From assembly GCF_011170125.1 (NCBI RefSeq), contig NZ_BLLN01000003.1, positions 1,246,001 to 1,310,000 on the forward strand: DNA of 64,000 nucleotides, read 5' to 3'. Every line of letters starts with the position of its first letter. Positions within the stretch are counted from its first letter, which is position 1. The notes under the pieces are model-generated. The model was not told the DNA's origin. It ran no database searches and saw nothing but the letters and a program-made list of their open reading frames with translations. The stretch is from Streptomyces diastaticus subsp. diastaticus. GTDB lineage: Bacteria; Actinomycetota; Actinomycetes; Streptomycetales; Streptomycetaceae. A program made the position numbers and the translations under genes. Below, one piece after another: positions 37,851 through 60,944 of the stretch.

Positions 37851-38180
37851 GAGAGTTCTCCTGGTGGGTGGGGACGATCACCATCAGTTGTTCCAGGCTC
37901 ACAGCATGTATCTGTACGACAAAAGGTGCAAATGGGGTAACCGGGGGTGTTTTCACTCGGCTGGTACGTCCCTGGAGGTGCCCGGCACCGGACGGTGGCA
38001 GCCTCGGCCCGTGCGCCCCTGGCCGTCCGGGCCCTCGCCCCGGGGCGTGCCCTGACGCCCCGGCGGTGGCAGTACCCTGGCGATTCACCCGGACGGCCCC
38101 CCGCCGTCCCGCCGGCCGGGCGCCCGCCCGGCCCGCGCAGCCACCCACCCCCGCACGAGAACGAAAAGGGCGTACCGCCG
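37851..38180. promoter_or_regulatory. Divergent promoter region
   Basis: A 330-base gap between the small membrane protein and the ankyrin gene. The stretch 37905-37945 (GTATCTGTACGACAAAAGG and neighbours) is unusually AT-rich for this genome and probably contains the leftward promoter. No gene or hairpin of note. Confidence 0.4.
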
Positions 38181-38594
38181 ATGAGTGAGGCACCCGACCC
38201 CGAGGTCGTCGAGCTGGCCACCAAGATCTTCGACCTGGCGCGCGAGGGGCAGCACGCCCGGCTGGCCGCCTACGTCGACGCCGGCGTTCCCGTCAACCTC
38301 ACCAACGACCAGGGCCACACCCTCGTCATGCTCGCCGCCTACCACGGCCACGCGGACGCCGTCCGCGTGCTGCTGGAGCGCGGCGCCGACCCCGACCGGG
38401 CCAACGACCGGGGCCAGACCCCGCTCGCGGGAGCCGTCTTCAAGGGCGAGGACGCGGTCGTCACCGCCCTCCTCGACGGCGGCGCCGATCCGGCCGCCGG
38501 TACCCCCTCCGCGGTGGACACGGCCCGCATGTTCGGCAAGGACGACCTGCTCGCCCGGTTCACCGCCGCCCAGGACGGTCCTGGCGCGGCCTGA
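38181..38594 (+). CDS. Ankyrin repeat protein
   Basis: A 137-residue soluble protein made of about three ankyrin repeats, the best being NLTNDQGHTLVMLAAYHGHADAVRVLLERGADPDRANDRGQTPLAGAVFKGEDAVVTALLDGGADP. Such domains mediate protein binding; no enzymatic part exists. Start at the ATG at 38181, with AAAAGGG roughly ten bases upstream. Common in Streptomyces, often beside catalase or unknown genes. Partner unknown. Confidence 0.82.
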   Translation: MSEAPDPEVVELATKIFDLAREGQHARLAAYVDAGVPVNLTNDQGHTLVMLAAYHGHADAVRVLLERGADPDRANDRGQTPLAGAVFKGEDAVVTALLDGGADPAAGTPSAVDTARMFGKDDLLARFTAAQDGPGAA

Positions 38595-38896
38595 ACCGCG
38601 CCGACCGGGGACGCCCGTTAAATCTGGTCGCGGCGCCGCGAGCCGCTGAGCCATCATGACGTCGTGATTCACGAACGCGCGAGCTGGGCAGGAGCCGCAT
38701 CATCGCGCGCACCGTGAACCGGCCCTCCCCGCGCCCCGTGGCCCGGGGACACCCTTGGGGCCATGGACGAGAGGCAGAGACGATGGACATCAGCACCCGA
38801 CAGCGGACGAGCGTGAAGAACGTCAAGACCGGTTGCGGCGCGGCCAGGTAGTGCACCGTCCCCGGTTGCGTCGACAGCTTGATGTGAGGCTCATCC
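38595..38896 (+). other. Leader region of the HEAT-repeat gene
   Basis: A 302-base gap after the ankyrin gene. It contains a palindromic GCGGCGCCGC near 38630 and a possible 22-codon open frame listed next. No terminator stronger than the short GC palindrome was seen. Confidence 0.35.
38783..38851 (+). CDS. Possible 22-residue peptide upstream of HEAT-repeat gene
   Basis: An ATG-to-TAG open frame of 22 codons encoding a basic peptide that ends KNVKTGCGAAR. GAGAGG lies about seven bases before the ATG. It ends 45 bases before the HEAT-repeat gene, so it could be a regulatory leader peptide or a small product with one cysteine. Such a short frame can arise by chance; only its ribosome site and third-position-poor bias (several A/T-ending codons, unlike neighbours) were available to judge. 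Confidence 0.25.
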   Translation: MDISTRQRTSVKNVKTGCGAAR

Positions 38897-40321
38897 ATGT
38901 GTGATTCCGTCGATCCGGTCATAGCGCCCAGCGGCACCCTCCTCGGCCTGCTCCAGCGGGGCAGGGGGGACGGCACGCTGCACGCCCTGACCGCCCCCCG
39001 TTCCGAGGCGCTCGCCGCCCTCGACCAGTGCGTCCTGCGCGACCCCCGCCACGACTGGCGGGTGGAGAACCGCTCCCTCTACTACGCCCGGCTCTACCTC
39101 GACCTGGACGGCTCCCTGGACGCCGTCGAGGCGCACCTCTTCGCGCCCGAGGACCACGCCGCCCCGGGCGAGGAACGCACCGGCCTGGCCGTCAGCGTCC
39201 TCGGCCACCTCGCCTCCTACGGTCGCGAGGACGCCCTGGCGCTCCTGCGCCGGTACGCGGCCCACGGCGCCAACTGGCCCTGGGCCCTGGACGAACTGGC
39301 CGTACGCGACGACGACGCCGCCCTCGCCGCGCTGGCCGCCCCCGTCCTCGCCCGGTTCCCCGCCACCGCCGAGGGCGAGGCGGAACTGGCCGCCGCGGCC
39401 GGCGACAGCTACGAACCGAGGCCCTGGCACCTCTGGGCCGAGGACCCCGACCCGGCGGTCGGCCCGCGCGTCAAGGCGGCCCTGGAGCGGTCCTCCTTCG
39501 GCCTGTGGCAGCGCCAGCTCACCGCCCCCGACCGCCCGCAGTGGAGCGTGGACGGAGTCCTGAGCTGGGCCCAGGAGGGCCACGACCGCGGCAACGACCG
39601 CCACGTGCCCGCCGCCCGGTGCCTGGCCACCGTCGCCACCGCCGCCGACCGGCCGGCGCTGCTGGCCGCCGCCCGCGGCGGACTCGACGGGGCGCGCGCC
39701 GCCGCCCTCAGCCACCTCGCGCGCACCGGCGACCCGGCGGCGCTCGACCTCATCGAGGCCGCCGTCGCCGACGGCTCGCCCGTGGTCCGCGAGGCCGCCG
39801 TCGAGTCGCTGGGGCGGATGGAGGGCGACACGGTCCTCGCCCGTGCCCGTCGCTGGGCCCCGCGCCCCGACGCCCTCGGCTCCGCCGCCGGACGACTCCT
39901 CGCCTGCCGGGGCCGGACCGGCGACGGCCCCCTGGTCCTCGCCGCGCTGCGCGAAGCGGTGCGCGGCCACGGCCCCGACGGGCCCGCCCTGTGGTGCCTG
40001 GTGGACGGCGCCGGGCGCCTCGGCATCGCGCAGGCCGCGCCGGTCCTGCGCCACCTCTACCGCGAGACGGCCTCCTCCCACCTGCGCGGCCGCACCGCCC
40101 AGGCGCTGGCCGCCACCGACGCCTCCTTCGCCAGCGGCTTCGCCGTCGAATGCCTCTGGGACTGCGAGGAGACCACCCGCGAGGTAGGCGCCCGCCACGC
40201 CGCCACCGGCGACCAGCGCGTCGTCGGCCGCCTCCGCCGCCTGGCCGCCGACCCGGCCGAGGAGGCGGAGGTCCAGACCGCGGTCCGCAGCCGCATCGGG
40301 CCGGACACGGCGGCGATCTGA
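38897..40321 (+). CDS. HEAT-repeat protein
   Basis: A 474-residue helical-repeat protein. The N-terminal part (MCDSVDPVIAPSGTLLGLLQRGRGDGTLHAL) is conserved-looking. HEAT-like repeats dominate from about residue 235, for example GARAAALSHLARTGDPAALDLIEAAVADGSPVVREAAVESLGRM. No catalytic motif is visible, so it is likely a scaffold or binding protein. GTGAGG lies eight bases before the ATG. It is followed by 386 gene-free bases and then the condensin-like operon on the same strand; a link between them is not shown. Confidence 0.75.
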   Translation: MCDSVDPVIAPSGTLLGLLQRGRGDGTLHALTAPRSEALAALDQCVLRDPRHDWRVENRSLYYARLYLDLDGSLDAVEAHLFAPEDHAAPGEERTGLAVSVLGHLASYGREDALALLRRYAAHGANWPWALDELAVRDDDAALAALAAPVLARFPATAEGEAELAAAAGDSYEPRPWHLWAEDPDPAVGPRVKAALERSSFGLWQRQLTAPDRPQWSVDGVLSWAQEGHDRGNDRHVPAARCLATVATAADRPALLAAARGGLDGARAAALSHLARTGDPAALDLIEAAVADGSPVVREAAVESLGRMEGDTVLARARRWAPRPDALGSAAGRLLACRGRTGDGPLVLAALREAVRGHGPDGPALWCLVDGAGRLGIAQAAPVLRHLYRETASSHLRGRTAQALAATDASFASGFAVECLWDCEETTREVGARHAATGDQRVVGRLRRLAADPAEEAEVQTAVRSRIGPDTAAI

Positions 40322-40707
40322 CGAGCCGCCGGGGCAGGGGGACCCCGGCGGTCGCACGGCACCGCGGCCCGGGCCCGCGGAGCACCGTCGCCGGCCGCGT
40401 GGGCCAGAGACGAGGCGGCCCGGCACGGGCGGGGCACGGCGCACCGAGACCCGACGCCGCACCGGCGGCGGCGCGAGCGACGCCGACGCGGCGACAGGCC
40501 ATGTCACGTCCTTTTCTGGCACCTTGAGGACGTGGCCGGACCGGGCGACGAGGGAAGGCGCGGAGAGGGCACGGCCACCGCGCCCCACGGGCCCTTCGGC
40601 CGGCCCGGGCCCCGCGGCACCCCGCCCCCGCCCCGGCGGCCGCCCGCACCCGTCTCCTCGACGGTACGTTTCGCCCGATGTCGGAGCGAGGATCTAGGCT
40701 GTCCCCC
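40322..40707 (+). promoter_or_regulatory. Upstream region of the condensin-like operon
   Basis: A 386-base gap, mostly featureless GC-rich DNA. Its end carries TAGGCT at 40695-40700, 7 bases before the GTG at 40708, a good -10 for a leaderless transcript. This decides the start codon of the kleisin-like gene. No clear terminator follows the HEAT-repeat gene. Confidence 0.45.
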
Positions 40708-42243
40708 GTGACTTCGCCCGCCTCCACGGAACCCGCTCCGTCCCAGCTCAGCGCGGGGCCGCGCCCGGCGCCGGGCCCGGCCGCCGACGAGGGCCTGGCG
40801 CGGCGGCTGCGGGCGCTGGCCTGCACGGCGCCGCTGCACGACCTGGACACCCGCAAGGCCAACCTGGCGGGGGAGTACGCGGGGTACGCGATGGCCGAGG
40901 TGGCCCTGGCCGCCATCGACCTGGTCACGCTCCACATGGACTTCGACACCGGCGCCGACCACGAGCAGATAGTGGCCAGGCTGCTGCCCCGCATCGCCGC
41001 CCAGGCCCCGGCCCGCCCCGCCGCCGAGCACGAGCGGGTCGCCCGCTGGGTCCTGGAGAACCTCGTCAACGTCGGCAGCGTCGACCGCGGTTTCCGCGCC
41101 GTGTACGGCACGTTCGCGCCCGACGGGAGCTACGTCCGCCGCGACTACGACTTCAAACTGGTGGAGGAGGTCCCCGGCCGCGGCGGCAGCGTCTACCTCC
41201 GCACCACCGACGAGGCGGTCAACGTCCTGGTCGGCGCCCTCGACACGGACGTCACCAGCGCCCAGATCGCCGCCGAGGTCAAGCTGGAGGTGCTCATCAA
41301 CCGGGGCCGCCTCGCCGACGCCCAACTCGCCGCCGAACAGGCCCGGTACCGCACCGTCCAGTACTCCGAGACGCTCCGCCGCGCCCTCGACGCCACCCGG
41401 CGCAACGTCCGAGCCGTCGACTGGCTCGGCGCCGTCCCCGACATGATCGCCGAGGCGCTCGACCACGTGGCCGACCGCTACCGCCACGAGAACGCCATCC
41501 TCACCAACATCCGCAAGGCCCGTGACGAGTCCGAGGACCCCGAGCAGAAACGGCGCGCCGCCGAACTGGTCGACATCGTCAAGGACTGCATCCGCCGGCA
41601 CACCCAGCTCCAGGCCCGGCTCCTCGAAGCGGGCCCGCTCTTCCGCGCCGAGCAGGACCGCCAGGCGTTCGCCGCCCCCGCCGCCCGGACCGGCGTCGAC
41701 CTCTACGGCCAGCTCCTCGCACCGCTGCTGCCGCTCCCCGTCGAGCAGGCCTCGCGCGCCACCGACGCCTGGTTCGCCCACGGCACCGGCCTGCGCACCC
41801 CCGCCTCGGTCCGCGTCGGCGACCTGGTCGACCTGCTGCTCACCCCGCCGGTCGAACGCGCCCACCTCGGCGCCGAGATGCCCGAGCCGGACCTGATCGC
41901 CACCCCGGACGACAGCCGCTTCAGCGAGGAGCAGCTCGCCACCGCCCGCGACCTCCTCGACCTCGAGTGGGACGCGCCCCGCCGCCTCTCCGGACTGCTG
42001 GCCGAGGCCCGCCGCCGCGACGACGACCCCTACGGCCTGCCGTACCTGGTGGCCCTCATCGCGGTGCACGCGGCCTCCCCGCCGGTCGGCACCGCCTACC
42101 GCCAGGGCGAGCGGCGCCTGCTGTTCGCCGTGGACGACGGCACCGAACTCGACGACCCCCACTTCGGCGGCGCCGACCTGATCGTCGGCAGCGCCCTCCT
42201 CGACGCCGCGGGCATGGCCGCCGACCGCACGGAGTCGGCGTGA
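40708..42243 (+). CDS. MukF/MksF (JetA)-like kleisin subunit
   Basis: A 511-residue largely helical protein. The region YLRTTDEAVNVLVGALDTDVTSAQIAAEVKLEVLINRGRLADAQLAAEQARYR matches the JetA/MksF pattern (LT-x-E-G-x2-FL, then Q-L-x3-EQ-I-x-RG-x-F-x2-A). A long alpha-helical segment follows, and a C-terminal winged-helix-like part. In MukBEF-type condensins this subunit bridges the ATPase heads and carries the small E subunit. Gene order here (kleisin, small subunit, SMC) is that of jetABC. The GTG start is leaderless. Homology is by pattern only. Confidence 0.65.
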   Translation: MTSPASTEPAPSQLSAGPRPAPGPAADEGLARRLRALACTAPLHDLDTRKANLAGEYAGYAMAEVALAAIDLVTLHMDFDTGADHEQIVARLLPRIAAQAPARPAAEHERVARWVLENLVNVGSVDRGFRAVYGTFAPDGSYVRRDYDFKLVEEVPGRGGSVYLRTTDEAVNVLVGALDTDVTSAQIAAEVKLEVLINRGRLADAQLAAEQARYRTVQYSETLRRALDATRRNVRAVDWLGAVPDMIAEALDHVADRYRHENAILTNIRKARDESEDPEQKRRAAELVDIVKDCIRRHTQLQARLLEAGPLFRAEQDRQAFAAPAARTGVDLYGQLLAPLLPLPVEQASRATDAWFAHGTGLRTPASVRVGDLVDLLLTPPVERAHLGAEMPEPDLIATPDDSRFSEEQLATARDLLDLEWDAPRRLSGLLAEARRRDDDPYGLPYLVALIAVHAASPPVGTAYRQGERRLLFAVDDGTELDDPHFGGADLIVGSALLDAAGMAADRTESA

Positions 42244-42325
42244 CCGCCGCCCGCCGCGCCCCGTCCCCCCGCCTCCCGGCCCCGTACCGCCGCCCGGGCA
42301 CGTCCCACCACCAGGAGCACCACCC

Positions 42326-43207
42326 GTGACCGAGCAGAGCACCGAGCCCGTCCGGGAGAACGCCGGCGCCCCGGCGCCGCACGCCCCCGCCGTCACCCCC
42401 GCCGACGCCGCCGACGCCGCCCGGCTGGTCTCCTTCGGCCTCCAGCCCCGGCTCCAGCCCGCCCGGGACGCCGAGTACGGAGAACTCCTGCGCCGGTACC
42501 GCGAGGACCCGCCCTTCGCCCGGCTCGCCGACGCCGTCGCCACCGGACTCGGCCTGATCGTCCTGGAGGTCTCCGACCGGGCCGGGATGGCCGTGACCGC
42601 CGCCGAGGACTCCGTCTTCGCGGTCCGCATGGGCGACTACGCCCGGCGCGCCTCCACCGACTCCGCCGACCGTTTCCTGCACGGCCTGGCCCATCTCGCG
42701 CTGGCCGCCATGGCGTTCCCCCGGCCCGAGGACCTCGCCGACGACGGCTACATCGGCCGCGTCACCGTCAACGGCGTGGACGCCTTCGTCCGCCACGCCT
42801 GCCGCAAGCTGGAGGAGCACGCCGAGGAGCGGGGCGACAACACCGACCCGGTCTCCGAAGCCCCCGGCCTGGAGGCGGCCTGGCGCGTCTGGGCCCGGCG
42901 CAGCTCCACCGGCGCCACCAAGGACGCCCGCCGGCTCGCCGGTTCCACCACCGGCATCGTCGGCAAGGCCGCCGCCTTCCTCACCGAGTCCGGCTTCCTC
43001 CAGCGCACCGGCGACGAGGCCGGCGGTACGTACCGCACCACCGCCCGCTACCAGCTCCAGGTCCGCGACCTCGCCGGCGGCGCCGCCATGAGCGAACTGA
43101 TCGCCCTCGGCATCGTCCCCGTCAGCGACGGCACCGCCACCCTGCTCCCGCCCGACGAGGGCGACGACCTCGACCTGGTCGCCGACGCCGGACTGCCCTT
43201 CTCCTGA
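42326..43207 (+). CDS. MukE/MksE (JetB)-like winged-helix subunit
   Basis: A 293-residue protein. After a Pro/Ala-rich start the body is helical with a winged-helix look: FARLADAVATGLGLIVLEVSDRAGMAVTAAEDSVFAVRMGDYA and a later block GKAAAFLTESGFLQRTGDEAGGTYRTTARYQLQVRDLA. Position between the kleisin-like and SMC genes, and size similar to other E subunits (200-300 residues), point to the MksE/JetB role of binding the kleisin and DNA. The GTG at 42326 follows CAGGAGC. Assignment is mainly contextual. Confidence 0.55.
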   Translation: MTEQSTEPVRENAGAPAPHAPAVTPADAADAARLVSFGLQPRLQPARDAEYGELLRRYREDPPFARLADAVATGLGLIVLEVSDRAGMAVTAAEDSVFAVRMGDYARRASTDSADRFLHGLAHLALAAMAFPRPEDLADDGYIGRVTVNGVDAFVRHACRKLEEHAEERGDNTDPVSEAPGLEAAWRVWARRSSTGATKDARRLAGSTTGIVGKAAAFLTESGFLQRTGDEAGGTYRTTARYQLQVRDLAGGAAMSELIALGIVPVSDGTATLLPPDEGDDLDLVADAGLPFS

Positions 43208-43289
43208 CCGGCCCGGCCGCCCGCCCACCGCCTGCCCCCGCCGTCCGGCCGCCGCCGGACCGTACCGATCGCAACGAGAGTCCGCCGCC

Positions 43290-46200
43290 ATGTACGAGCT
43301 GTCCCGGGTCCGTCTCTACTCCATCGGACCCGCAGGCGCCCGGTACGCCGACACCGTCCTGGACCTGCGCGGAGTCGGCAGGGCCGTACCCGAACCGGCC
43401 CCCGCGCAGGCGGAGTTCTTCGAGGAGGAGCCGGTCGGGCCGCCCCGCAGGCCCGCACCCGCCGGCGTCCTCTTCCTGGAGAACGGCGGTGGGAAGTCGG
43501 TGCTGCTCAAGCTGATCTTCTCGGTGATGCTGCCGGGCCACCGCAACACCCTCGGCGGTGCCAGCTCCGGCGTGCTCCGCAAGTTCCTGCTCGCCGACGA
43601 CTGCGGCCACGTCGCCCTGGAGTGGCAGCACACCCTCACCGGCGAGACCGTCGTCGTCGGCAAGGTCAGCGAATGGCGCGGCCGCCAGGTCTCCCACGAC
43701 CCGCGCAAGTTCGCCGAAGCCTGGTACTCCTTCCGCCCCGGGCCCGGCCTCAGCCTCGACTCGCTGCCCGTCGCCGAGTCCACCACCGTCCCCGCACCCG
43801 TCGAAGGCGCCTCCGGGGCACGCGGCAGGCGCCGCACCATGAAGGGGTTCCGCGACGCCCTCACCGACGCCGGGAAGTTCTACCTCCACCTCGACGTGCA
43901 CTGGGAGGAGACCCACGAGCGCTGGACCGAGCACCTCGGCGAACTCGGCCTCGACCCCGAACTCTTCCGCTACCAGCGGGAGATGAACGCCGACGAGGGC
44001 GAGGCGGCCGGCCTCTTCGCGGTCAAGAAGGACTCCGACTTCACCGACCTGCTGCTGCGCGCCGTCACCGACACCCGCGACACCGACGGCCTGGCCGACC
44101 TCGTCCACGGCTTCGGCCACAAACTCGGCCGCCGCGCCGAGCTCATCGCCGAACGCGACTTCACCGCCGGCTCCGTCGACCTCCTCGGCCGCATCGTGGA
44201 GACCACCGCCGAACGCGACCGCAGCCGCGACATCCACGCCGCCGCCGAACGCCGCACCCGCACCCTCGCCCGGGGTCTCGCTGTCCGCGCCCGTCACGAA
44301 CGCGCCCGCACCGGTGACCTCGCCCAGCAGGTCACCACCGCCGCCCACCGCGTCACCGAGGCCGACGGGGCCCGCTCCCACCGCGCCCTGACCGCCGCCG
44401 AACTCGCCTACCGGCACGCCTCGCTCGCCCTCACCGTCGCCGAGAAGGCCGCCGCCGCCCAGCGCCGCGAACTGGCCGACGCCCGCACCCTGCACGCCGC
44501 CTGGCAGGCCGCCGAGGCCGTACTGCGCCACCGCGCCGCCGCCGACCGGTCCACCCGCGTCGCCGACGCCATCCGCGAGGCCGAACGCGACGCGGCCCCG
44601 GCCCTCGCCGCCCGCTCCCAGGCCGCCACCGCGCTCGTCCGCGCCCTCGACGCCGCCGCCCGCGAGGGCGAGGAGGTCGCCACCGAACTGGAGGAGCGCG
44701 CCGCCCACCTCCAGGAGGAGGGCGAGGCCGCCCACCGCGACGCCACCGCCGCCGCCACCGAGGCCCAGCGCGCCCGCAGCGAGACCGGCCACCTGCGCCA
44801 GCGCCTCGCCGAGGTCGAGCAGGAGACCGAGGAGGCCGTACGCGCCGGCTGGCTGGAGGCCGGCGCGGCCGACGCCGACCCCGCCCGGGCCGCCCTCGCC
44901 GCCACCGACGCCGAGCAGGAGGCGGCCGCAGCCTGGGAGAGCGCCCGTGAACGCGCCCACCGCGCCGCCGACCACGCCAAGGAGTGCGCCGCCGACGAGG
45001 CCCGCGCCGACCTGGCCGCCGCCCGCGCCCACGACGCCGCCGACGCCGCCGTCCGCGCCCACGACGCCGAGCAGCGGACCGCCGCCGTCCTCGCCGCCGA
45101 ACCGCGGCTCGCCGAACTCCTCGGCCTGCCCGCGCCCGACGGCGACGAGGGCCCGCTCACCGCCGGTGAACTCGACCGCTCCGCCGACCGCCTCGCCGCC
45201 CTGCTGGACGAGGGCGTCACCGCCGCCGAACGCCAGCTCTTCGACCTGCGCACCGCCGCCGCCGACGACACCCGCATCCTCGGCGCCCTCGGCGACGGCG
45301 GGCTGCTGCCGCCCGGCCCCGACGTCCTCGCCACCGTCGAGTACCTCGGCGAACAGGGCATCCCGGCCCTGCCCGGCTGGCGCTACCTCGCCCAGGCCGT
45401 CGACCCGGCCGAGCACGCCGCCGTCCTCGCCGCCCGGCCCGAACTGGTCGACGGCGTCGTCATCACCGACCCCGACACCCACAGCCGCGCCCGCGCCGTG
45501 CTCTCCGACGCCGCCCTGCTGCCCCGCTCCGCCGTCGCCGTCGGCACCTCCGCCGCCCTCCTGGCCCCCGCGCGGACGGCCGGCGACGCCGAGGAACAGG
45601 GCGTCTTCCTCGTGCCGCCGAACCCGGCCATGCACGACGAGTACGCCGCCGACGAGGAACGCCAGACCCTGCGCGCCCGCGCCGCCGCCCGCGACGAGGA
45701 GATCCGCGCCCTGGCCGCCCGCCTCGCCAAGGACCGGGAGCTGGCCGCCCGGCTCACCTCCTGGCGGACCGGCTGCCCGGCGGGGCACCTCGCCCAGCTC
45801 CGCGCCACCGCCGACCACGCCCAGGAGCACGCGGACACCGCCGCCCACACCCTCCAGCGGGCCCGGGCCGCCCGCGCCGAGGCCGACGAGGCGGCCACCG
45901 AGGCCGCCCGCGTCCGCGACGACAGCCAGGAACGCGCCCAGCGGGCCCGCCGAGCCGCCGACGCCCTCGCCGGTCTCGCCCACCGCCTGCGCGAACGCCC
46001 CCGCTGGCAGGCCGCCCTGCGTGAACTGGCCGAGACCGCCGCCACCAGCGAGGAGCGCGCCCAGACCTGCCTGGACCGGGCCCGCGCCGCCGACGAGGAC
46101 CGCCGCGCCGCCCAGCGTGCCGCCGACGACGCCCGCCGTACCGCCCGCGCCCTGCGCGCCGAACGCGCCGAGATCGCCGGAGTCCCCGACGACGCCCAAC

Positions 46201-47891
46201 TCCCCGCCGCCCCCGACACCCCGCGCGTCTCACTGCCCGCGCTGCGCGAGGCGTACCGCTCCGCCTCCCAGCTGTACGAGAAGGTCGGCGTCGGCGCCGA
46301 CCTCAGGGCGGAGCAGGCCCGCGCGGAGAGCGACGAGTCGGCGGCCCGCGCCGAACTCGACCGGCTCAGCAACAAGGTCCGCAACCGCGCCGCGCAGCTC
46401 CTGGAGGACCCCGACGGCGCCGACGGGCCCTCCCGGCAGGCCGCAGCCGCCCGCGCCGAGGCCCTCGTCCAGATGCTGGAGACCCGCTCGGCCGCCGCCA
46501 GCGAACAGCTCGGCCGGCTGCGTGGCGAGGCCGAACGGCACGCCCCCGAGGAGGGCGAGGCCCACACCGAGCTGCCGCCTGAGCAGGTGCCGGCCGACGT
46601 CGAGGCCGCCCAGCGGCTGTTGCGCGCCGCCACCGCCGAACTCGCCACGCGCACCGACGAACTGGCCGCCGCCCGCGAGGCACACGGCGAGCTCCTGCAC
46701 GCCCACCGCGCCGCCGAGGAGGCCACCGCCGGCTTCGAGGAGACCGCCGCGCTCCTGCGCGACCTGCTCCGCGACCCGCAGGACGCCCGGGACACCGACG
46801 AGGAGCGCGGTGCCCAGCCCCCGGAGCAGTACCCGGGCAGCCTCGACGAGGCCCGCCGCGTCGCCGCCGAGGCCCGCCGCTCCCTGCGCGGCTGCGCCGC
46901 CGACCTCACCGCCGCCGAATCCGCGCTCCGCGAGACCAGCGACATCCTGGTCCGGCACGCCAACTCCACCCGCTACGAGCAGGTCCGCACCCCTGCCCGG
47001 GCCCAGATCCGCGAACTGCCCGCCGCCGCGCTGCCCGAGCACGCGGCCAAGTGGGCCGAGGCGTTCGCGCCCAGGCTGCGGGTCCTCACCGACGAACTCG
47101 ACCAGCTCGAACGCAACCGCGACTCGATCGTGGACCGCCTCCGCGGACTGGTCGAGTCCTCCCTCGCCACCCTCCGCTCCGCCCAGCGCCTGTCCCGGCT
47201 GCCCGAAGGGCTGGGGGAGTGGTCGGGCCAGGAGTTCCTGCGCGTCCGCTTCGAGGAGCCCGACCAGACCACGCTGGTGGAGCGGCTCGGCGAGGTCATC
47301 GACGAGGCCACCAGCACCGCCGTCCGCAAGAACGCCGACCTGCGCCGCGACGGCATGTCGCTGCTGCTGCGCGGCGTCCACGCCGCCCTCCAGCCGCGCG
47401 GCGTCTCCGTCGAGATCCTCAAGCCCGACGCCGTGCTGCGCGCCGAGCGCGTCCCCGTCGGGCAGATGGGCGACGTCTTCTCCGGCGGCCAGCTCCTCAC
47501 CGCCGCCATCGCGCTCTACTGCACGATGGCCGCCCTCCGCAGCAACGACCGGGGCCGTGACAAGCACCGTCACGCCGGCACGCTCTTCCTCGACAACCCC
47601 ATCGGCCGTGCCAACGCCACCTACCTGCTGGAGCTCCAGCGTGCCGTCGCCGACGCCCTCGGCGTCCAGCTCCTGTACACCACCGGCCTCTTCGACACGA
47701 CCGCGCTCGCCGAGTTCCCGCTCGTCATCCGGCTCCGCAACGACGCCGACCTCCGCGCCGGGCTGAAGTACATCAGCGTCGAGGAGCACCTGCGTCCCGG
47801 TCTGCCCCAGCAGGACCCGCAGGAGGAGACGGTGCACGGGGAGATCACGGCCACCCGGATGTTCCGCAAGCCCCAGTCCGACGAGGAGTGA
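43290..47891 (+). CDS. SMC-like ATPase (MukB/MksB/JetC type)
   Basis: A 1533-residue condensin-type ATPase. The N-terminal head has a Walker A at residues 64-71 (LFLENGGGKSVLLKL). A long Ala/Glu/Arg-rich coiled coil runs from about 300 to 1300, interrupted near residues 610-790 by a non-coil region that could be the hinge. The C-terminal head has the ABC signature VFSGGQLLTAAIALYC at about 1396 and the Walker B LFLDNPIGRANATYL at about 1432-1446, where Asn follows Asp. A late block VQLLYTTGLFDTTALAEFP may be the H-loop. Together with the two preceding genes it forms a MukBEF/Wadjet-like complex that should load on DNA and extrude loops. No JetD gene follows. Confidence 0.78.
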   Translation: MYELSRVRLYSIGPAGARYADTVLDLRGVGRAVPEPAPAQAEFFEEEPVGPPRRPAPAGVLFLENGGGKSVLLKLIFSVMLPGHRNTLGGASSGVLRKFLLADDCGHVALEWQHTLTGETVVVGKVSEWRGRQVSHDPRKFAEAWYSFRPGPGLSLDSLPVAESTTVPAPVEGASGARGRRRTMKGFRDALTDAGKFYLHLDVHWEETHERWTEHLGELGLDPELFRYQREMNADEGEAAGLFAVKKDSDFTDLLLRAVTDTRDTDGLADLVHGFGHKLGRRAELIAERDFTAGSVDLLGRIVETTAERDRSRDIHAAAERRTRTLARGLAVRARHERARTGDLAQQVTTAAHRVTEADGARSHRALTAAELAYRHASLALTVAEKAAAAQRRELADARTLHAAWQAAEAVLRHRAAADRSTRVADAIREAERDAAPALAARSQAATALVRALDAAAREGEEVATELEERAAHLQEEGEAAHRDATAAATEAQRARSETGHLRQRLAEVEQETEEAVRAGWLEAGAADADPARAALAATDAEQEAAAAWESARERAHRAADHAKECAADEARADLAAARAHDAADAAVRAHDAEQRTAAVLAAEPRLAELLGLPAPDGDEGPLTAGELDRSADRLAALLDEGVTAAERQLFDLRTAAADDTRILGALGDGGLLPPGPDVLATVEYLGEQGIPALPGWRYLAQAVDPAEHAAVLAARPELVDGVVITDPDTHSRARAVLSDAALLPRSAVAVGTSAALLAPARTAGDAEEQGVFLVPPNPAMHDEYAADEERQTLRARAAARDEEIRALAARLAKDRELAARLTSWRTGCPAGHLAQLRATADHAQEHADTAAHTLQRARAARAEADEAATEAARVRDDSQERAQRARRAADALAGLAHRLRERPRWQAALRELAETAATSEERAQTCLDRARAADEDRRAAQRAADDARRTARALRAERAEIAGVPDDAQLPAAPDTPRVSLPALREAYRSASQLYEKVGVGADLRAEQARAESDESAARAELDRLSNKVRNRAAQLLEDPDGADGPSRQAAAARAEALVQMLETRSAAASEQLGRLRGEAERHAPEEGEAHTELPPEQVPADVEAAQRLLRAATAELATRTDELAAAREAHGELLHAHRAAEEATAGFEETAALLRDLLRDPQDARDTDEERGAQPPEQYPGSLDEARRVAAEARRSLRGCAADLTAAESALRETSDILVRHANSTRYEQVRTPARAQIRELPAAALPEHAAKWAEAFAPRLRVLTDELDQLERNRDSIVDRLRGLVESSLATLRSAQRLSRLPEGLGEWSGQEFLRVRFEEPDQTTLVERLGEVIDEATSTAVRKNADLRRDGMSLLLRGVHAALQPRGVSVEILKPDAVLRAERVPVGQMGDVFSGGQLLTAAIALYCTMAALRSNDRGRDKHRHAGTLFLDNPIGRANATYLLELQRAVADALGVQLLYTTGLFDTTALAEFPLVIRLRNDADLRAGLKYISVEEHLRPGLPQQDPQEETVHGEITATRMFRKPQSDEE

Positions 47892-48929
47892 GGCGCCGGC
47901 CGGGCCTCACACCACGCCACGCGGGGCGGTGGGCGCGGCGGGGCGGGTGGGCGAAGCGGTTCGCCGGTCCCGCCCTTGCCGCCTCTCCACGCCGACGGGG
48001 CCGCTGGACCGGCGGGGAAGGCCGCGGGCGGTCACCGGGAGGGTGAGGGCCGCGGGCGATCAGGCCGATGCCGGCCCCCGACGGCCGCGGTGGTGTTCGC
48101 GGCGGCCGACCTCGTAGCCGCCTCCCGCCTCGGCCGAGACCGAGGGGGGACCAGACCGGGCCGGACGACGACGAACGTGTTGTCGAGGTGTCCAGGTCGC
48201 CGACCAGCAGAAGCGACGCGTCCTCGGACGGGGCCTCGACGTGGTCGCCGTGCGCGCTCTCGGCGCGGTAGTACGGGAGCCCTCATCGCCCTGTTCCCGT
48301 TCCACCGGCCGGCATGGTGGCGGACACGGGACATCGAGGGCTGACCCGCCCGGCAGGTCAGGCCCCGCCGGGTGCGTGGGCAGAGGCTTCTGACGCTCGC
48401 CCCGTGCCAACCGCGCCCCGCGTCCCCAAGCCAGCACACCGGCCTTGCCCGCGCAGGGCCGTCCCGCCGGGCCGGCGGGCGACGGCCGGCCCGGCGTCGC
48501 CGACCCGGCCACGACACACGACCTCGGCAGGGAGCCGGCGGTTGCCGCCCCCACCGTCGCCGGCGCGCGGGGGAGCGGTGGCGGCCTCGACGGGCCGGCC
48601 GCGATCCGCGCACGTCGCTCCGCCGGCCGCCGGCCGCCGAACGGTCCGGCGCCGGGCCGCGCCAGGCGTTCGGGCACGAGGTTCAGCGGCGCGCCGGGCG
48701 GCACGATCCGGCCGAACCGAGGGGACGACCCACGTGGGGCCCGCACGCTGCCCTCGCTGTCCCCCACGGTGACCACGACCGCCTCATGGACCTCCGCCGG
48801 GCCGCCTCCGGCCGGCCGGTTCCCGGCCTCCCGAGGGTGGCCGGCCGAGCCTCCACGCGTCGCTCGCCGGCACCTCGCGAGGCCGACCGCGGCGGGACAG
48901 GTGGTGATCCGGCCGCCGTGCGGTGCCGC
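47892..48929. other. Apparently non-coding region, possibly decayed
   Basis: About 1 kb with no intact gene on either strand; frames are interrupted, and the longest ones are Arg/Pro-rich. Between about 48150 and 48290 on the minus strand, two frames in succession look protein-like: YYRAESAHGDHVE and SEDASLLLVGDLD in one, then DNTFVVVRPGLV in another. This suggests a frameshifted remnant of a small gene. No direct repeats, transposase or tRNA boundary were seen. Confidence 0.35.
48150..48290 (-). pseudogene. Possible frameshifted remnant of a small gene
   Basis: Reading leftward, the segment encodes YYRAESAHGDHVEAPSEDAS then LLLVGDLD. Continuation in a second frame gives LDNTFVVVRPGLV. The two pieces together look like one short protein split by a frameshift near 48175. 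An in-frame TGA lies just before the first piece. The family was not recognised. This is weak evidence from amino-acid composition only. Confidence 0.25.
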
Positions 48930-49652
48930 TCAGGAAGAGTGGGTCAACTCCCGGCTCCGCTCCGAGCCTTGAGTGCCGGAGCGTTCCGCCGTGCCGATCC
49001 GGCGGGCCGCGGCCCTCACGCCGGAGCCGCCTCCGGACCGGGCACAGGCGCCGCGGTCCACCCCGGGGGCGTCACCCGCCGGCTCGCCCCCGCGCTCTGG
49101 ACCCTTGCCCGCGCGCTCCGGTGCCGGGACCGGGTCACCGCCGTCCCGCCCGCGCCGCTCCCCGTCGGAGGCCGCGGACCGCGTGCCCGCCGACGGGTCG
49201 GGTATCCGGACGCCGGAGCGGGCCGCCCGCCGGGCCGCGCGGCGCTCCCGGCGGCGTTCGCGGCGCAGCTCCCGGGCCGTGCTGCCCGGTGCCGAGACCA
49301 CGCCGTGCCGCTGGTTCCACACCTGGCGGGTGACCCAGACGTCCAGCACCGCCCAGGTCGCCGCGATGGTGCTGGCCACGCCGCTGAGCACCATCGGGAA
49401 GGCCAGCCAGGACTCCGCCAGCGTGGCCAGGAAGGCGACCATCGCCTGTATCAGCGTCAGCGCCACGATGAGCACCGCGCGCACCGCCGCCGTACGCACC
49501 GGATCGGGCATCCGGGGGCGCACCGCGGGCTCCTCCACCCACAGCGGCGGCCGGTCCGGCTGTCCGCTCCCCTCCGCCCGGCGCGGTCCGGGCACCCGCC
49601 CGCCCGGCTCGCCCCGCTCCGCCGAAGTCCTCCGACGCTCCGCCGTCGCCAT
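48930..49652 (-). CDS. Hypothetical two-helix membrane protein
   Basis: A 240-residue protein. The N-terminus (MATAERRRTSAERGEPGG) is hydrophilic. Two membrane helices lie at about residues 55-75 and 82-105 (VRAVLIVALTLIQAMVAFLATLAESWLAFPMVLSGVASTIAATWAVLDVWV). An Arg-rich segment ERRRERRAARRAARSG and a low-complexity tail follow. The hydrophobic hairpin and W-x-QRHGVVSAPGS segment look real; the tail beyond residue 150 is low complexity and may be poorly conserved. Divergent from the conservon, 502 bases away. Function unknown. Confidence 0.62.
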   Translation of the reverse strand: MATAERRRTSAERGEPGGRVPGPRRAEGSGQPDRPPLWVEEPAVRPRMPDPVRTAAVRAVLIVALTLIQAMVAFLATLAESWLAFPMVLSGVASTIAATWAVLDVWVTRQVWNQRHGVVSAPGSTARELRRERRRERRAARRAARSGVRIPDPSAGTRSAASDGERRGRDGGDPVPAPERAGKGPERGGEPAGDAPGVDRGACARSGGGSGVRAAARRIGTAERSGTQGSERSRELTHSS

Positions 49653-50154
49653 CAGTCCGTCACTCCCCGCCTGCCTTGCCGTCAGCCGACCGGCGTCGGG
49701 CCGAACCCGCGCCGTCATCAGTCTGGCTGCCCGCCTTCGTCCGCTTTACGCCGCCGCCGTCGAGATCCGGCGGCCGCCGGTCCGCGCCGGCGCACCCCTC
49801 CCGTACCAACTCCGCACACCGCGTACACGACTCGTACAGAAGGACGCGCGGAGCACTCCGATGATTCCCGATCCGGCGGGTGAGATGTCGGAAGTGACCA
49901 GGGAGATGCCCGGAATCGGCCGGTCCGGGCGGCGGCCGGCCCGTGTCCGGGGGACTCACCCGACCGTCGGAGAACGGCCCACCGGTCACGCCGACGTCGC
50001 CGAACGGCGGGAACCGGCCGCCGCCGCCCGGTCCCGGGCGGAAAACCTCCCCGACGCCTCTTCGATCACCCCTGTGTCAGTAGTAGGCTCGCGCCGCTTG
50101 TTGACGCACGGATGTGCACCCCGGACACCAGCGGGGGACGGACTGGGGGAGGCC
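49653..50154. promoter_or_regulatory. Divergent promoter region upstream of the conservon
   Basis: A 502-base gap. Frames within are low-complexity. Close to cvnA, TAGTAGGCTCG at about 50089-50099 could supply a -10 (TAGGCT) for a leader of some 55 bases, with GGGGGAGG at 50145-50152 as the ribosome site. No other structure noted. Confidence 0.4.
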
Positions 50155-52776
50155 ATGCGCTTTCGCGGCAGGACGATCCGGCGGAAGATCGTGGCGCTGC
50201 TGCTCGTGCCGCTGGTCTCCCTCACCGCGATCTGGGGATTCGCCACCGTGCTGACCGGGCGGGAGGCCGCCGAGATCCTCGAGATCGGCGAGGCCGACGA
50301 CCGGGTCGGGCGACCCGTCGAGGAAGCCGCCCGGGTACTCCAGGACGAACGGCGCAGAACCCTCGTCCACCTCGCCGACCCGCGCGCCTCGGCCGCCCTC
50401 GGCGATCTGCGCCGCGCCCGGACCGTCACCGACCGGGCACTGGCCCGCGTCCGGGCCGGAGCCGAGGACGCCGACGCGACCGGAGGGCTCAGCGCCGACT
50501 CCCGGCGGCGGCTCACCGCCCTCCTCGAGTCCTTCGAGGGGATCACCACCCTGCGCCGTTCCGTCGAGGACAACACGGTCACCCGCACCGCCGCCCTCGA
50601 CCTCTACAACCGCCTCGTGGACCCCTGCTTCGTCTTCCTGACCCACCTGCCGGCCCTCAAGGACGTCGCACTCGACAAGCAGAACCGCGCCCTGGTCAAC
50701 GTCGCCCGCGCCCGCGACCTGCTCTCCCGCGAGGACGCCCTGGTCGCCTCCGCACTCGTCGGCGAACGCCTCGACAAGGCCGACCTCCGCCAGGTGTCGG
50801 ACCTCCTGGCCCAGCGCACCCTCCTCTACGAGATCAGCCTCCCGCTCCTCCCGGACGACGAACGCGCCCGCTACGAGCGGTACTGGCAGGGCCCCGAGAC
50901 CGCACCCCTGCGCGACCTGGAGACCTCCGTCGCCGCCGCCGCGCCCGGGCCGCCGCACGGCGTGACCGCCAAGAGCTGGGACACGGCCGCGGTGAAGGTC
51001 CTCGACGGCCTCGCCGAGCGCGGCAGCGCAGCGGCCGACCGCTACGAGGAACGCGTGCGGCCCGTCGCCGTCGGCATCCTGGTCCAGGCCGGAGCCACCG
51101 CCGTCCTCGGCTTCGCCGCCCTCCTGCTCTCGCTCTACCTCTCCGTCCGCATCGGCCGCAGCCTCATCCGCGCCCTCTCCCGGCTGCGCCACCAGGCCCA
51201 CGAGGCCTCCGGCGTGCGCCTGCCGTCGGTGCAGCGCCGGCTGGCCGCGGGTGAGCAGGTCGACGTCGACACCGAGGCGCCCCGGCTGGAGTACGACAAG
51301 AACGAGATCGGCCAGGTCGGGCAAGCCCTCAACACCCTCCAGCGCGCCGCCGTCGAAGGCGCCGTCAAGCAGGCCCAGATGCGGCGCGGGGTCTCGGAGG
51401 TCTTCGTCAACCTCGCCCGCCGCAGCCAGGTCCTCCTGCACAAGCAGCTCACCCTGCTGGACACCATGGAGCGGCGCACCGAGGACTCCGAGGAACTGGC
51501 CGACCTCTTCCGCCTGGACCACCTCACCACCCGCATGCGCCGCCACGCCGAGGGCCTGGTGATCCTCTCCGGCGCCGCGCCCTCCCGGCAGTGGCGGCGC
51601 CCGGTCCAGCTCATGGACGTCGTCCGCGCCTCCGTCGCCGAGGTCGAGGACTACGAGCGCATCGAGGTCCGCCGGCTGCCGAAGATCGCGGTGACCGGCC
51701 CCGCCGTCGCCGACCTCACCCACCTCACGGCGGAACTCCTGGAGAACGCCACCGTCTTCTCACCCCCGCACACCGCGGTCCAGGTGCACGGCGAGTCCGT
51801 CGCCAACGGCTTCACCCTGGAGATCCACGACCGGGGTCTCGGTATGGCCCCGGACGTCCTCCTCGACGCCAACCTCCGCCTCGCCGAGACCCCCGACTTC
51901 GAACTCTCCGACACCGACAGGCTGGGCCTGTTCGTGGTGAGCCGCCTCGCGCAGCGCCAGAACATCCGGGTCTCCCTCCAGAAGTCGCCGTACGGGGGCA
52001 CGACCGCCGTCGTCTTCATCCCGGACGCCCTGCTCATCGAGACCGACGGCGAACCGTCCGGCTCCACCGACGGCCGCGGCCTGGCCCTCGACGGCCTCGG
52101 CAACGGTGCGCGGGGCCCCGGCCGCCCCGCCCTGACCCGTATCCCCACCTCCCGTCCGCCCGCGAACCGGCCCTTCCCCGACGGACCGGTCGAGCTGGAG
52201 GCCCCGGCCGGCACTCCGGGCCTGGACGACGAGGACTTCCCCGGCGCCCTCCGCGACGAGGACAGCGAACCGGGCGTCTTCCGGCCCCGGCGTCCGCTGG
52301 CCCCCGCGGCCGACCCCCGCGACCAGCATCAGCAGGCCGACGACGACGGGGCTCGGGACGCCCGGCCGGGCGGACCGTCACCCTCCGGTACGGGCCCCGC
52401 GCCGCTGCCCCGCCGCCGCACCCCGAAGCTGGTCAGCTCGCACGGCCGCACCGTCGCCCACGGCACGCGCGAAGAAGCGGCACAGGACCCGGAGAACCGG
52501 GGCGGCCCGCACGGAGAGGCCGCCTCCCGGGCGCCCGGGGCCGGTCCGGCGGCGCTGCCGCGCAGGGTCCGGCAGGCCAGTCTCGCCCCCCAGCTCAAGG
52601 ACACCCGCGGGAGCGCCGCGGACGACCGCGGCCAGGACGCCGCCCCCGACACCGAACGCGACGCCGAACAGGTCCGCAGCCGCATGGCCTCGCTCCAGCG
52701 GGGCTGGCAGCGCGGCCGCGACGAGAACGCGGGCCCCACAGCACCACGAACGACACCCGAGGGAGACGGTCGATGA
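50155..52776 (+). CDS. cvnA: Conservon sensor-like histidine kinase CvnA
   Basis: An 873-residue membrane sensor. A short cytoplasmic start is followed by helix 1 (KIVALLLVPLVSLTAIWGFATVL). A nitrate/nitrite-sensing-type extracellular helical domain covers about residues 40-310, and helix 2 is VAVGILVQAGATAVLGFAALLLSLYL. Then come a HAMP-like linker, the SEVFVNLARRSQVLLHKQLTLLDTMERRTED helices and an HATPase_c domain (LTAELLENATVFSPPHT, DRGLGM). The phospho-acceptor His is replaced in the usual conservon manner. A long Pro/Gly/Asp-rich tail follows. It heads a four-gene conservon thought to work with a Ras-like GTPase. Confidence 0.9.
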   Translation: MRFRGRTIRRKIVALLLVPLVSLTAIWGFATVLTGREAAEILEIGEADDRVGRPVEEAARVLQDERRRTLVHLADPRASAALGDLRRARTVTDRALARVRAGAEDADATGGLSADSRRRLTALLESFEGITTLRRSVEDNTVTRTAALDLYNRLVDPCFVFLTHLPALKDVALDKQNRALVNVARARDLLSREDALVASALVGERLDKADLRQVSDLLAQRTLLYEISLPLLPDDERARYERYWQGPETAPLRDLETSVAAAAPGPPHGVTAKSWDTAAVKVLDGLAERGSAAADRYEERVRPVAVGILVQAGATAVLGFAALLLSLYLSVRIGRSLIRALSRLRHQAHEASGVRLPSVQRRLAAGEQVDVDTEAPRLEYDKNEIGQVGQALNTLQRAAVEGAVKQAQMRRGVSEVFVNLARRSQVLLHKQLTLLDTMERRTEDSEELADLFRLDHLTTRMRRHAEGLVILSGAAPSRQWRRPVQLMDVVRASVAEVEDYERIEVRRLPKIAVTGPAVADLTHLTAELLENATVFSPPHTAVQVHGESVANGFTLEIHDRGLGMAPDVLLDANLRLAETPDFELSDTDRLGLFVVSRLAQRQNIRVSLQKSPYGGTTAVVFIPDALLIETDGEPSGSTDGRGLALDGLGNGARGPGRPALTRIPTSRPPANRPFPDGPVELEAPAGTPGLDDEDFPGALRDEDSEPGVFRPRRPLAPAADPRDQHQQADDDGARDARPGGPSPSGTGPAPLPRRRTPKLVSSHGRTVAHGTREEAAQDPENRGGPHGEAASRAPGAGPAALPRRVRQASLAPQLKDTRGSAADDRGQDAAPDTERDAEQVRSRMASLQRGWQRGRDENAGPTAPRTTPEGDGR

Positions 52777-53204
52777 CCGCATCGAAGACCGCCGCGCACA
52801 CCACCGGTTCCGGGGAGCTGAACTGGCTCCTCGACGACCTGGTCAACAGGGTCGCGGGCATCCGCAAGGTCCTGGTCCTGTCCGGCGACGGGCTGCCCAC
52901 CGGGGTCTCCCAGGATCTGACCCGCGAGGACAGCGAACACCTGGCCGCCGTCGCCTCCGGCTTCCACAGCCTGGCCAAGGGCGTCGGCCGGCACTTCGAC
53001 GCGGGCCGGGTCCGGCAGACCGTCGTCGAACTCGACGAGGCGTTCCTCTTCGTCACCGCCGCCGGCGACGGAAGCTGCCTCGCCGTCCTCGCCGACTCCG
53101 ACTCCGACGTGGGCCTCGTCGCGTACGAGATGACGTTGCTGGTCAAGCGGGTCGGCGTGCATCTGGGCAGCGCGCCGCGCACGGATCTGCCCGCGGGCGG
53201 GTAG
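52773..53204 (+). CDS. cvnB: Conservon roadblock/LC7 protein CvnB
   Basis: A 143-residue Roadblock/LC7-domain protein: LNWLLDDLVNRVAGIRKVLVLSGDGLPTGVSQDLTREDSEHLAAVASGFHSLAKGVGRHFDAG, then FLFVTAAGDGSCLAVLADSDSDVGLVAYEMTLLVKRVG. These proteins act as GTPase-activating or scaffold factors for MglA-like GTPases. It overlaps cvnA by 4 bases (ATGA), so it is translationally coupled. It would link the CvnA kinase-like sensor to the CvnD GTPase. Confidence 0.93.
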   Translation: MTASKTAAHTTGSGELNWLLDDLVNRVAGIRKVLVLSGDGLPTGVSQDLTREDSEHLAAVASGFHSLAKGVGRHFDAGRVRQTVVELDEAFLFVTAAGDGSCLAVLADSDSDVGLVAYEMTLLVKRVGVHLGSAPRTDLPAGG

Positions 53205-53214
53205 TGAACCGGTC

Positions 53215-53610
53215 ATGAGCGAAGACGGGAACGGGGCGCACCGCTGGTTCGACGACGACGCCGGACCGGTGGTCCGCCCGTACGCCATGACCCGGGGCCG
53301 GACCACCGGCGCCGGCCAGCACCGCCTGGACCTCATCGCGCTCGTCGTCGCGGAGCCGCGCGCCGACGACCCGGAGGGGAACCGCACTCTGTCGCCCGAG
53401 CACGTCGACATCGTGGCGCTGTGCCGTACGGCGCCCCAGTCGGTGGCGGAACTCGCCGCCGAGCTGGACCTGCCGGTCGGTGTCGTCCGGGTCCTGATCG
53501 GTGACCTCGTGGAGGAGGAGTTCGTGCACGTGAACCGGCCGGTGCCGCCGGCGGAACTGCCCGACGAAAGCATTCTGCGCGAGGTGATCAGCGGGCTGCG
53601 CGCCCTCTGA
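53215..53610 (+). CDS. cvnC: Conservon DUF742 protein CvnC
   Basis: A 131-residue DUF742 protein: RWFDDDAGPVVRPYAMTRGRTTGAGQHRLDLIALVVAEPR followed by a winged-helix-like half, LSPEHVDIVALCRTAPQSVAELAAELDLPVGVVRVLIGDLVEEEFVHVNRP. Third member of the conservon; DNA or protein binding is suspected from the fold. Ten bases after cvnB. In most conservons the next gene overlaps; here 151 bases with a hairpin intervene. Confidence 0.93.
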   Translation: MSEDGNGAHRWFDDDAGPVVRPYAMTRGRTTGAGQHRLDLIALVVAEPRADDPEGNRTLSPEHVDIVALCRTAPQSVAELAAELDLPVGVVRVLIGDLVEEEFVHVNRPVPPAELPDESILREVISGLRAL

Positions 53611-53650
53611 CCCCCGGTCGGCGGACGACCCTGCCACCGGAGCACGGCGC

Positions 53651-53684
53651 GCCGCCCGCCCCCCTTCCCCGGGGTGCGGGCGGC
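53651..53684 (+). terminator. Hairpin between cvnC and cvnD
   Basis: GCCGCCCGC at 53651-53659 pairs with GCGGGCGGC at 53676-53684 (16-base loop). It may end or attenuate transcription ahead of cvnD. Confidence 0.5.
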
Positions 53685-53761
53685 GCCCCCTCCGCCGCCG
53701 GACGCCGGCGCACCGTCGGCCCCACCCCCGAGAGATCAGCGAAAGCAGGAGACGAGACCCC

Positions 53762-54367
53762 ATGAAGTCCGGGCGTTCACCGCGGGAGAAGGCCCCCGTC
53801 GAGCCGGTCACCCTGAAGATCCTGGTGGCCGGGGGGTTCGGCGTCGGCAAGACCACCCTGGTGGCGGCGGTCAGCGAGATCAGGCCGCTGCGGACCGAGG
53901 AGACCCTGAGTGAGGCGGGCCGCCCCGTCGACGACACCGGCGGGGTGGAGGCCAAGCACACCACCACGGTCGCCATGGACTTCGGCCGCATCACGCTCCG
54001 CGAGGACCTCACGCTCTACCTCTTCGGAACCCCCGGGCAGGACCGGTTCTGGTTCCTCTGGGACGAGTTGGCGCAGGGGGCCCTCGGCGCCGTCGTCCTC
54101 GCCGACACCCGCCGCCTCCAGGACAGCTTCGCCGCCGTCGACTACTTCGAGCGCCGCGGCATCCCCTTCGTCGTCGGCGTCAACTGCTTCGACGAGGCCG
54201 ACCCCTACCCGGCCGAGGACATCCGCACCGCTCTCGACCTGGACGCGGGCGTTCCCCTGGTCCTCTGCGACGCCCGCGAGCGTGCTTCCGCCAAGGGCGT
54301 CCTCATCGAGGTCGTCGAACACGCCGTGGCTCGCGCCGCCGCACCCCGGAAGAGCGCGCCGCACTGA
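53762..54367 (+). CDS. cvnD: Conservon Ras-like GTPase CvnD
   Basis: A 201-residue small GTPase of the MglA/Ras-like group: Walker A KILVAGGFGVGKTTLVAAVSEI, switch region GGVEAKHTTTVAMDFGRITL, and the Walker B region LYLFGTPGQDRFWFLWDELAQGALGAVVLADTR. FVVGVNCFDEAD takes the place of NKxD. The start MKSGRSPREKAPVEPV is the ATG at 53762 with GGAG about 11 bases upstream. Completes cvnABCD, which by analogy with eukaryotic G-protein signalling couples a membrane sensor to morphology or secondary metabolism. Confidence 0.92.
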   Translation: MKSGRSPREKAPVEPVTLKILVAGGFGVGKTTLVAAVSEIRPLRTEETLSEAGRPVDDTGGVEAKHTTTVAMDFGRITLREDLTLYLFGTPGQDRFWFLWDELAQGALGAVVLADTRRLQDSFAAVDYFERRGIPFVVGVNCFDEADPYPAEDIRTALDLDAGVPLVLCDARERASAKGVLIEVVEHAVARAAAPRKSAPH

Positions 54368-60885: not shown

Positions 60886-60944
60886 CCCTCACTGTCAGTG
60901 AGGGTGATTACGGTGAGTGAGCAAGTTCGTACCGCTCACTCACC
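60886..60944 (+). promoter_or_regulatory. Two nested CTCACT/AGTGAG inverted repeats
   Basis: CCCTCACTGTCAGTGAGGG at 60886-60904 is a 9-bp-arm palindrome, and GGTGAGTGAGC at 60912-60922 pairs with GCTCACTCACC at 60934-60944 (11 bp, 11-base spacer). Both use the AGTGAG hexamer. The first may end the ligase transcript; the second sits 13 bases before the next gene start, within its likely 5' leader, with CAGGGGG as the ribosome site. An operator role (BldD-like AGTGA...TCAC pattern) is inferred. Confidence 0.55.

Follow-up and report, generated by a model that had tools for sequence, protein, structure and literature searches.

The window analysed here, a stretch of 64,000 nucleotides (nt) from Streptomyces diastaticus subsp. 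diastaticus (contig NZ_BLLN01000003.1, positions 1,246,001 to 1,310,000), contains an operon of three genes, jetA, jetB and jetC. We suggest, with a probability of roughly 0.58, that they encode a MukBEF-like complex which derives from a type III Wadjet minus its nuclease JetD and which is core, chromosomal and DNA-damage-inducible in Streptomycetaceae. Since a Wadjet motor without nuclease is combined here with a damage-type promoter, a defence machine has probably been turned into a genome-maintenance machine. A wider proposal appears evenly poised, namely that actinomycetes domesticated a type III Wadjet, which lost the nuclease and became a core, PafBC-controlled SMC complex of the damage response and thus a bacterial counterpart of Smc5/6, with JetABCD retained as mobile defence in some strains. 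A preliminary description of this DNA had already pointed to the operon; the damage-type promoter, the near-universality and the occurrence, in some relatives, of accessory JetABCD operons separate from it are added here. The features concerned are the following.

40679..40700, + strand: promoter motif of RecA-NDp/PafBC type, TGTCGG-N10-TAGGCT, an exact match to TGTCRG-N10-TANNNT
40708..42243, + strand: jetA-like gene, GTG start, 511 amino acids (aa), kleisin subunit by homology to JetA3
42326..43207, + strand: jetB-like gene, GTG start, 293 aa, MukE-like winged-helix (KITE) subunit
43290..47891, + strand: jetC-like gene, ATG start, 1533 aa, SMC-type ATPase of the DUF3584 kind
47892..48929, no strand: gene-free stretch at the expected place of jetD, no gene found by a simple gene caller

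Subunits of the operon and search for JetD

The three same-strand reading frames at 40708..47891 were recovered with the lengths given before. In profile searches the JetA protein matches PADLOC JetA3 (PDLC00567, 1e-185) and the JetC protein matches PADLOC JetC3 (PDLC00588, E=0), so that the profile check proposed in the preliminary description succeeded for these two subunits; for JetB it failed, there being no significant match in Pfam, NCBIfam or PADLOC. JetB is, however, 46-53% identical to the JetB proteins of four JetD-bearing operons (L101, L102, L156 and L178) and 56% identical to that of L155, an operon whose jetC runs off its contig, and the best fits of its predicted model among solved chains are MukE and JetB. 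This means that JetA, JetB and JetC subunits of the Wadjet type III kind are present, JetB by alignment and model rather than by profile. Comparison of JetA and JetC with the chain sequences of the PDB gave no convincing match, and the AlphaFold model of JetA is poor (mean predicted local distance difference test score 42) and thus a weak basis for judging a MukF-like kleisin fold. Among the 120 of 1137 JetA relatives that were listed, the only names are those of a hypothetical, an uncharacterised, a membrane or a DUF3375 protein.

The roughly 1 kb behind jetC is gene-free, as had been described. The earlier statement that no toprim gene occurs in the 64 kb holds for the JetD families, the proteins of the window not having each been scanned for Toprim. 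Genome-wide no jetD was found either, the profiles PF11795, PF09983 and JetD3 (PDLC00594) all being negative in this genome. Corynebacterium glutamicum served as control and was positive with the first two of them. PF09983 is weak on type III and missed the JetD of four genomes (G007, G022, G090, G094) that PDLC00594 found; the latter profile matched none of 14 control genomes and 21 of 150 genomes of the genus.

In related genomes the place behind jetC was searched by tblastn with eight JetD queries, a locus being testable if jetC was uncut and followed by at least 1.2 kb; eight named Streptomyces loci, none from other genera of the family, five from family f18 and two accessory loci were dropped as too short or cut. 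No jetD was found beside jetC at 72 named Streptomyces loci, at 10 loci from further genera of this family or at 12 f18 loci. A simple local loss, which would have shown itself by a jetD gene beside the operon in close relatives, is therefore not what the neighbourhood comparison reveals, and a local or recent loss of jetD is ruled out, as the gene is beside jetC at 0 of the 94 loci that could be tested in this clade and in none of the testable relatives from 11 genera of the family. The accessory operons, in contrast, have jetD beside jetC in 15 of 15 cases. Eight of these (L105-L108 and L136-L139) were fetched around JetD matches, so only the other seven, picked by JetA alone (L101-L104, L156, L157, L178), test the pairing of JetA with JetD, and all seven have it. 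The accessory operons are Wadjets of type III, with JetD3 matches of 3e-110 in L101, 2e-115 in L156 and 1e-104 in L178, and JetD3 is found also in two plasmid-borne operons, from Rhodococcus (L182) and Streptomyces (L183). A JetD3 match at E<1e-40 is seen in 11 of the 150 genomes of the genus, each of which has multiple JetA matches; G119 and G128 likewise have multiple JetA matches, yet no JetD3 at this threshold. As JetD, a defining part, was looked for and not found, we do not file the operon of the window as a Wadjet.

Two observations touch the JetD-bearing operons and their relatives. The one-contig genome G090 carries a JetABCD operon near both ends (L137 and L138), the jetD frame being shorter in the second of them, possibly a Wadjet in terminal repeats. 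JetB relatives 57-61% identical to that of L178 form a coherent Pseudonocardiaceae group in Amycolatopsis, Prauserella and Saccharomonospora (P0150-P0212), and none of these genus names is found among the 120 of 442 JetD relatives that were listed, which possibly hints at a further JetD-less lineage.

State of the motor, ancestry and distribution

The SMC-type ATPase with Walker A, SGGQ signature and Walker B had been noticed before, and all three are conserved in relatives. Walker A (LFLENGGGKSVL) is found in 87 of the 88 jetC rows having that end, 76 times directly and 11 times in frame before the chosen start, the exception being L095 with a broken frame. VFSGGQL and LFLDNPIG occur in all 81 uncut jetC genes of the family and 80 of these are at least 1400 aa long; short jetC frames are those of L095, L145, L152 and the accessory L105. 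Median ratios of nonsynonymous to synonymous substitution (dN/dS; 276 pairs, 24 loci drawn from 67) are 0.099 for jetA, 0.156 for jetB and 0.181 for jetC. Judged by these sequences, purifying selection acts on the motor, which is intact. Most columns that are invariant in eight accessory copies are kept in at least 90% of the JetD-less rows, namely 77 of 81 in JetA and (again for columns invariant in accessory copies) 124 of 173 in JetC. ABC ATPases usually carry a catalytic glutamate at the Walker B position where LDNP has asparagine, and this asparagine is shared by the copies of the family and 15 of 15 accessory JetC proteins, so it characterises this subgroup of JetC.

The JetA tree (53 rows) has the JetD-less clades of the first family (f1, support 100/98) and of f18 (100/99) both nested among JetD-bearing lineages; the outer branches bear JetD too, save L180, where jetC is cut and JetD is not visible. 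The JetC tree (33 rows) agrees, with 100/100 for both JetD-less clades, and uniting the two is not rejected there (approximately unbiased test, p-AU 0.499). The JetB tree (50 rows) is compatible and weakly resolved. The JetA and JetC trees are midpoint-rooted, with long branches flagged and, for JetC, uneven composition. Since JetD-less copies are nested among JetD-bearing ones, these trees are read as one or two losses of the nuclease from a Wadjet motor, which became core. The earlier option of a Wadjet that has lost jetD fits as ancestry (JetA and JetC trees) and falls as a local or recent event.

Within the genus, 147 of 150 genomes (146 of 147 of good quality) have JetA, for most listed rows at 82-91% identity. 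In the family Streptomycetaceae JetA was found in 198 of 200 genomes (193 of 194 of good quality) and in 17 of 17 genera, and both sets mostly have one match per genome. Three of the five genomes without it (G050, G073, G079, G508, G556) are less than 85% complete and four of the five are in more than 600 contigs. Family f18, where 19 of 35 genomes have JetA, is probably Frankiaceae, because JetB and JetD pieces of its genome G444 are identical to those of Pseudofrankia sp. BMG5.36. Class-wide the JetA3 profile was matched in 61 of 394 genomes (40 of f1, 19 of f18, one of f46 and, weakly, one of f17); these counts are lower bounds, since at most five candidates per genome in a first search and three with the profile were scored and others may be missed. 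Relatives were seen on 4 of 72,556 plasmid records, none of them above 60% identity, and on 0 of 50,697 phage records. The same genome encodes an SMC-family gene with both PF02463 halves (C5:1699976-1703890), so the JetABC complex is additional, and its role as a replacement of SMC is ruled out. The gene spacing differs as well. In the JetD-less operon the median gaps are 95.5 bp between A and B and 71.5 bp between B and C (78 loci), whereas in the accessory operons (15 loci) the genes nearly overlap, with -4 (A-B), 6 (B-C) and -4 (C-D).

The promoter motif upstream of jetA

The most conserved upstream element is a block that ends at the GTG start (alignment of 78 named loci and the window). 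It fits the RecA-NDp consensus, tTGTCRGtg-N8-TAnnnT, for which recA of the same genome is the internal control. The presence of this motif before jetA is a new observation. The TANNNT part of the motif (40695-40700) stops 7 nt short of the GTG, a distance kept exactly in 79 of 80 named loci, and the same GTG is found in 80 of 80 named relatives, so both support position 40708 as the start of jetA; starts in relatives were picked by script as the nearest to that of the query, and gene calling and start choice are rough. From this short distance a leaderless jetA mRNA is likely.

Near the jetA start TGTCRG-N10-TANNNT occurs in 79 of 80 named Streptomyces loci, in two more sets from the genus (19 of 19 and 21 of 25 loci; the genus sets may share genomes) and, outside the genus, at 8 of 10 loci from the same family. 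The seven misses in the first family are one fixed letter off, and only 0.3% of shuffled regions come as close. In total the 80 named loci (3.2 million bases, both strands) hold 80 motif sites, and 79 loci have one at jetA. The window has two sites where 0.04 are expected. The second exact site (60893-60914) lies 43 nt before the gene of a 295-aa protein (60958-61845), which has no match in Pfam or NCBIfam and is a candidate DNA-damage gene. Accessory operons with an exact motif near jetA are L105-L108 and L155, so some Wadjets may be inducible by damage or single-stranded DNA (ssDNA).

A 1.6-Mb block of this genome (C5:420001-2020000) was picked for its position around smc and recA and is hence a non-random sample of the regulon. 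It contains eight sites, and 6 of its 1235 called genes have the motif upstream:

xth: motif 7 nt upstream
YoaA/DinG-like helicase: motif 9 nt upstream
recA: motif inside the called start, before the usual RecA start
ligA: motif 168 nt upstream
RadD-like SF2 helicase: motif 164 nt upstream
ABC transporter: motif 89 nt upstream

The DinG/YoaA- and RadD-like names come from NCBIfam matches below the cut-offs. In this block the motif is enriched before DNA-repair genes. The other two of the eight sites lie 6-7 nt before GTG or ATG frames of 119 and 500 residues (L221/L220, C5:1320738; L257, C5:693068). In the literature, recA and SCO6735 of S. coelicolor are reported to be preceded by a RecA-NDp promoter and SCO6735 is induced about 5-fold by ultraviolet (UV) light (PMC5087735), the promoter of SCO6735 being reported also in PMC9411070. 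RecA-NDp is tied to PafBC in PMC8223512 and PMC6789036, and sigma adaptation and ssDNA activation of PafBC are described in PMC11804915.

Downstream of the operon, at 50155-54367, there are a NIT-domain histidine-kinase-like gene, a DUF742 gene and a GTP/ATP-binding gene, a conservon-like order; the NIT-domain gene is present also at 41 of 65 named loci. An Rfam scan of 38000-50500 gave no match.

Weighing of the explanations and known systems

According to the reading of a domesticated, damage-inducible complex, ssDNA at damaged or stalled DNA would activate PafBC, which would bring the housekeeping RNA polymerase to the RecA-NDp promoter, and JetABC would be produced from a leaderless mRNA. 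The JetC motor, together with the JetA kleisin and the JetB KITE protein, would load on DNA and extrude or bridge loops like Wadjet JetABC and MukBEF. Without JetD there would be no cutting, and the complex may compact, tether or help to segregate damaged chromosomes, like Smc5/6 or RecN and unlike Wadjet. This comes closest to the stand-alone condensin special to actinomycetes among the options of the preliminary description, and it is this option that family-wide presence, lack of JetD beside jetC and purifying selection favour.

Several points weigh against it. Of 16 accessory operons 5 have the motif close to jetA as well, and among 17 JetD-less operons from f18 no more than 2 do; the f18 misses resemble shuffled sequence. 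The eight sites of the 1.6 Mb block compare with 3, 1 and 4 in simulated sequences of equal length, so the excess is real and some sites are likely to be chance; for two of the five repair genes the motif is as far upstream as 164 and 168 nt. Neither the JetA nor the JetC alignment has an accessory-invariant column that both JetD-less groups have lost, which gives no hint of a decayed docking surface for JetD, and a nuclease may act in trans. ATP hydrolysis is not assured from sequence, given the asparagine of LDNP, though the accessory copies share it. The open-access literature yielded no expression, binding or phenotype data for the operon and, by title or abstract opening, no paper on it, which does not imply its absence from print. 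Deletion of SCO6735 caused no sensitivity to UV or methyl methanesulfonate (PMC5087735), and thus a RecA-NDp promoter does not prove a role in repair. Finally, an initial search described in PMC9380542 suggested that the PafBC motif of M. smegmatis is not conserved in S. venezuelae; for Streptomyces the motif counts presented here point the opposite way.

Smc5/6 silences extrachromosomal DNA by compaction, and a related explanation is defence without cutting, in which small circular or foreign DNA is recognised and silenced by compaction, or an unrelated nuclease encoded elsewhere is recruited. The closest relatives are indeed JetABCD Wadjets, the positions conserved in accessory copies are mostly retained, and a PafBC-type promoter, found in some accessory operons too, could sense the ssDNA of conjugation as well as damage. 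On the other hand the operon is family-wide with mostly one JetA match per genome, its relatives are nearly absent from plasmid and phage records, 11 genus genomes with strong JetD3 also keep a core-like JetA match, and the motif is common to recA, xth and ligA. We regard this explanation as unlikely. The earlier option of a defence complex with its effector elsewhere is conceivable, but no JetD-family protein was found in the genome. Somewhat more doubtful is a constitutive condensin that organises the chromosome (e.g., during sporulation) and whose damage control is incidental. MukBEF acts in chromosome organisation and presence in 17 of 17 genera would suit such a role, as would the MksBEF of Pseudomonas aeruginosa, which is assumed to organise the chromosome (PMC7083940); but an SMC gene is encoded as well, the alignment of Streptomyces chromosome arms is attributed to SMC and ParB (PMC8410768), and the upstream element with the strongest conservation is a promoter of RecA-NDp type. 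A decaying Wadjet remnant would explain why jetD was not found, and it has a negligible probability, because jetC is at least 1400 aa long in 80 of 81 genes, dN/dS is 0.10-0.18 and jetA is in 198 of 200 genomes; the same data rule out a pseudogene.

If a damage-inducible complex of Wadjet origin is indeed what the operon encodes, it would be a missing part of how linear Streptomyces chromosomes survive damage and are packed. It would also be a natural experiment on the conversion between SMC immune nuclease and SMC genome keeper, with the motor kept and the nuclease lost. The operon is moreover a concrete target for a question left by PMC9380542, whether Streptomyces has a PafBC-type damage response.

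Among known systems, Wadjet type III (JetABCD; PADLOC JetA3, JetB3, JetC3 and JetD3) shares the JetA and JetC families, the gene order and neighbouring tree lineages; in contrast with it, no JetD was found beside the operon described here or elsewhere in the genome, and this operon is core instead of sporadic and has spaced genes. MksBEF without MksG (P. aeruginosa) and MukBEF (Escherichia coli) are likewise SMC–kleisin–KITE trios without nuclease, and the JetB model resembles MukE. The operon differs from both by a type III Wadjet origin, JetA and JetC sequences without convincing PDB match, an SMC gene alongside and the damage-type promoter. MksBEFG of C. glutamicum is also a second actinobacterial SMC complex beside SMC-ScpAB but has the nuclease MksG, and in PMC7083940 it is described as acting on non-chromosomal DNA only and contrasted as plasmid-only with the presumably chromosomal MksBEF of P. 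aeruginosa. In what was seen of the Streptomyces condensin papers PMC8410768 and PMC13121528, SMC is treated as the condensin, and MksB and Wadjet appear in a reference title only or not at all. As for the RecA-NDp/PafBC regulon, no SMC complex is known to belong to it, and none is named in the titles or abstract openings of the papers listed on it. The jetABC operon resembles the members of this regulon in its promoter motif and the position of that motif, which it shares here with recA, xth, ligA and two repair-type helicases.

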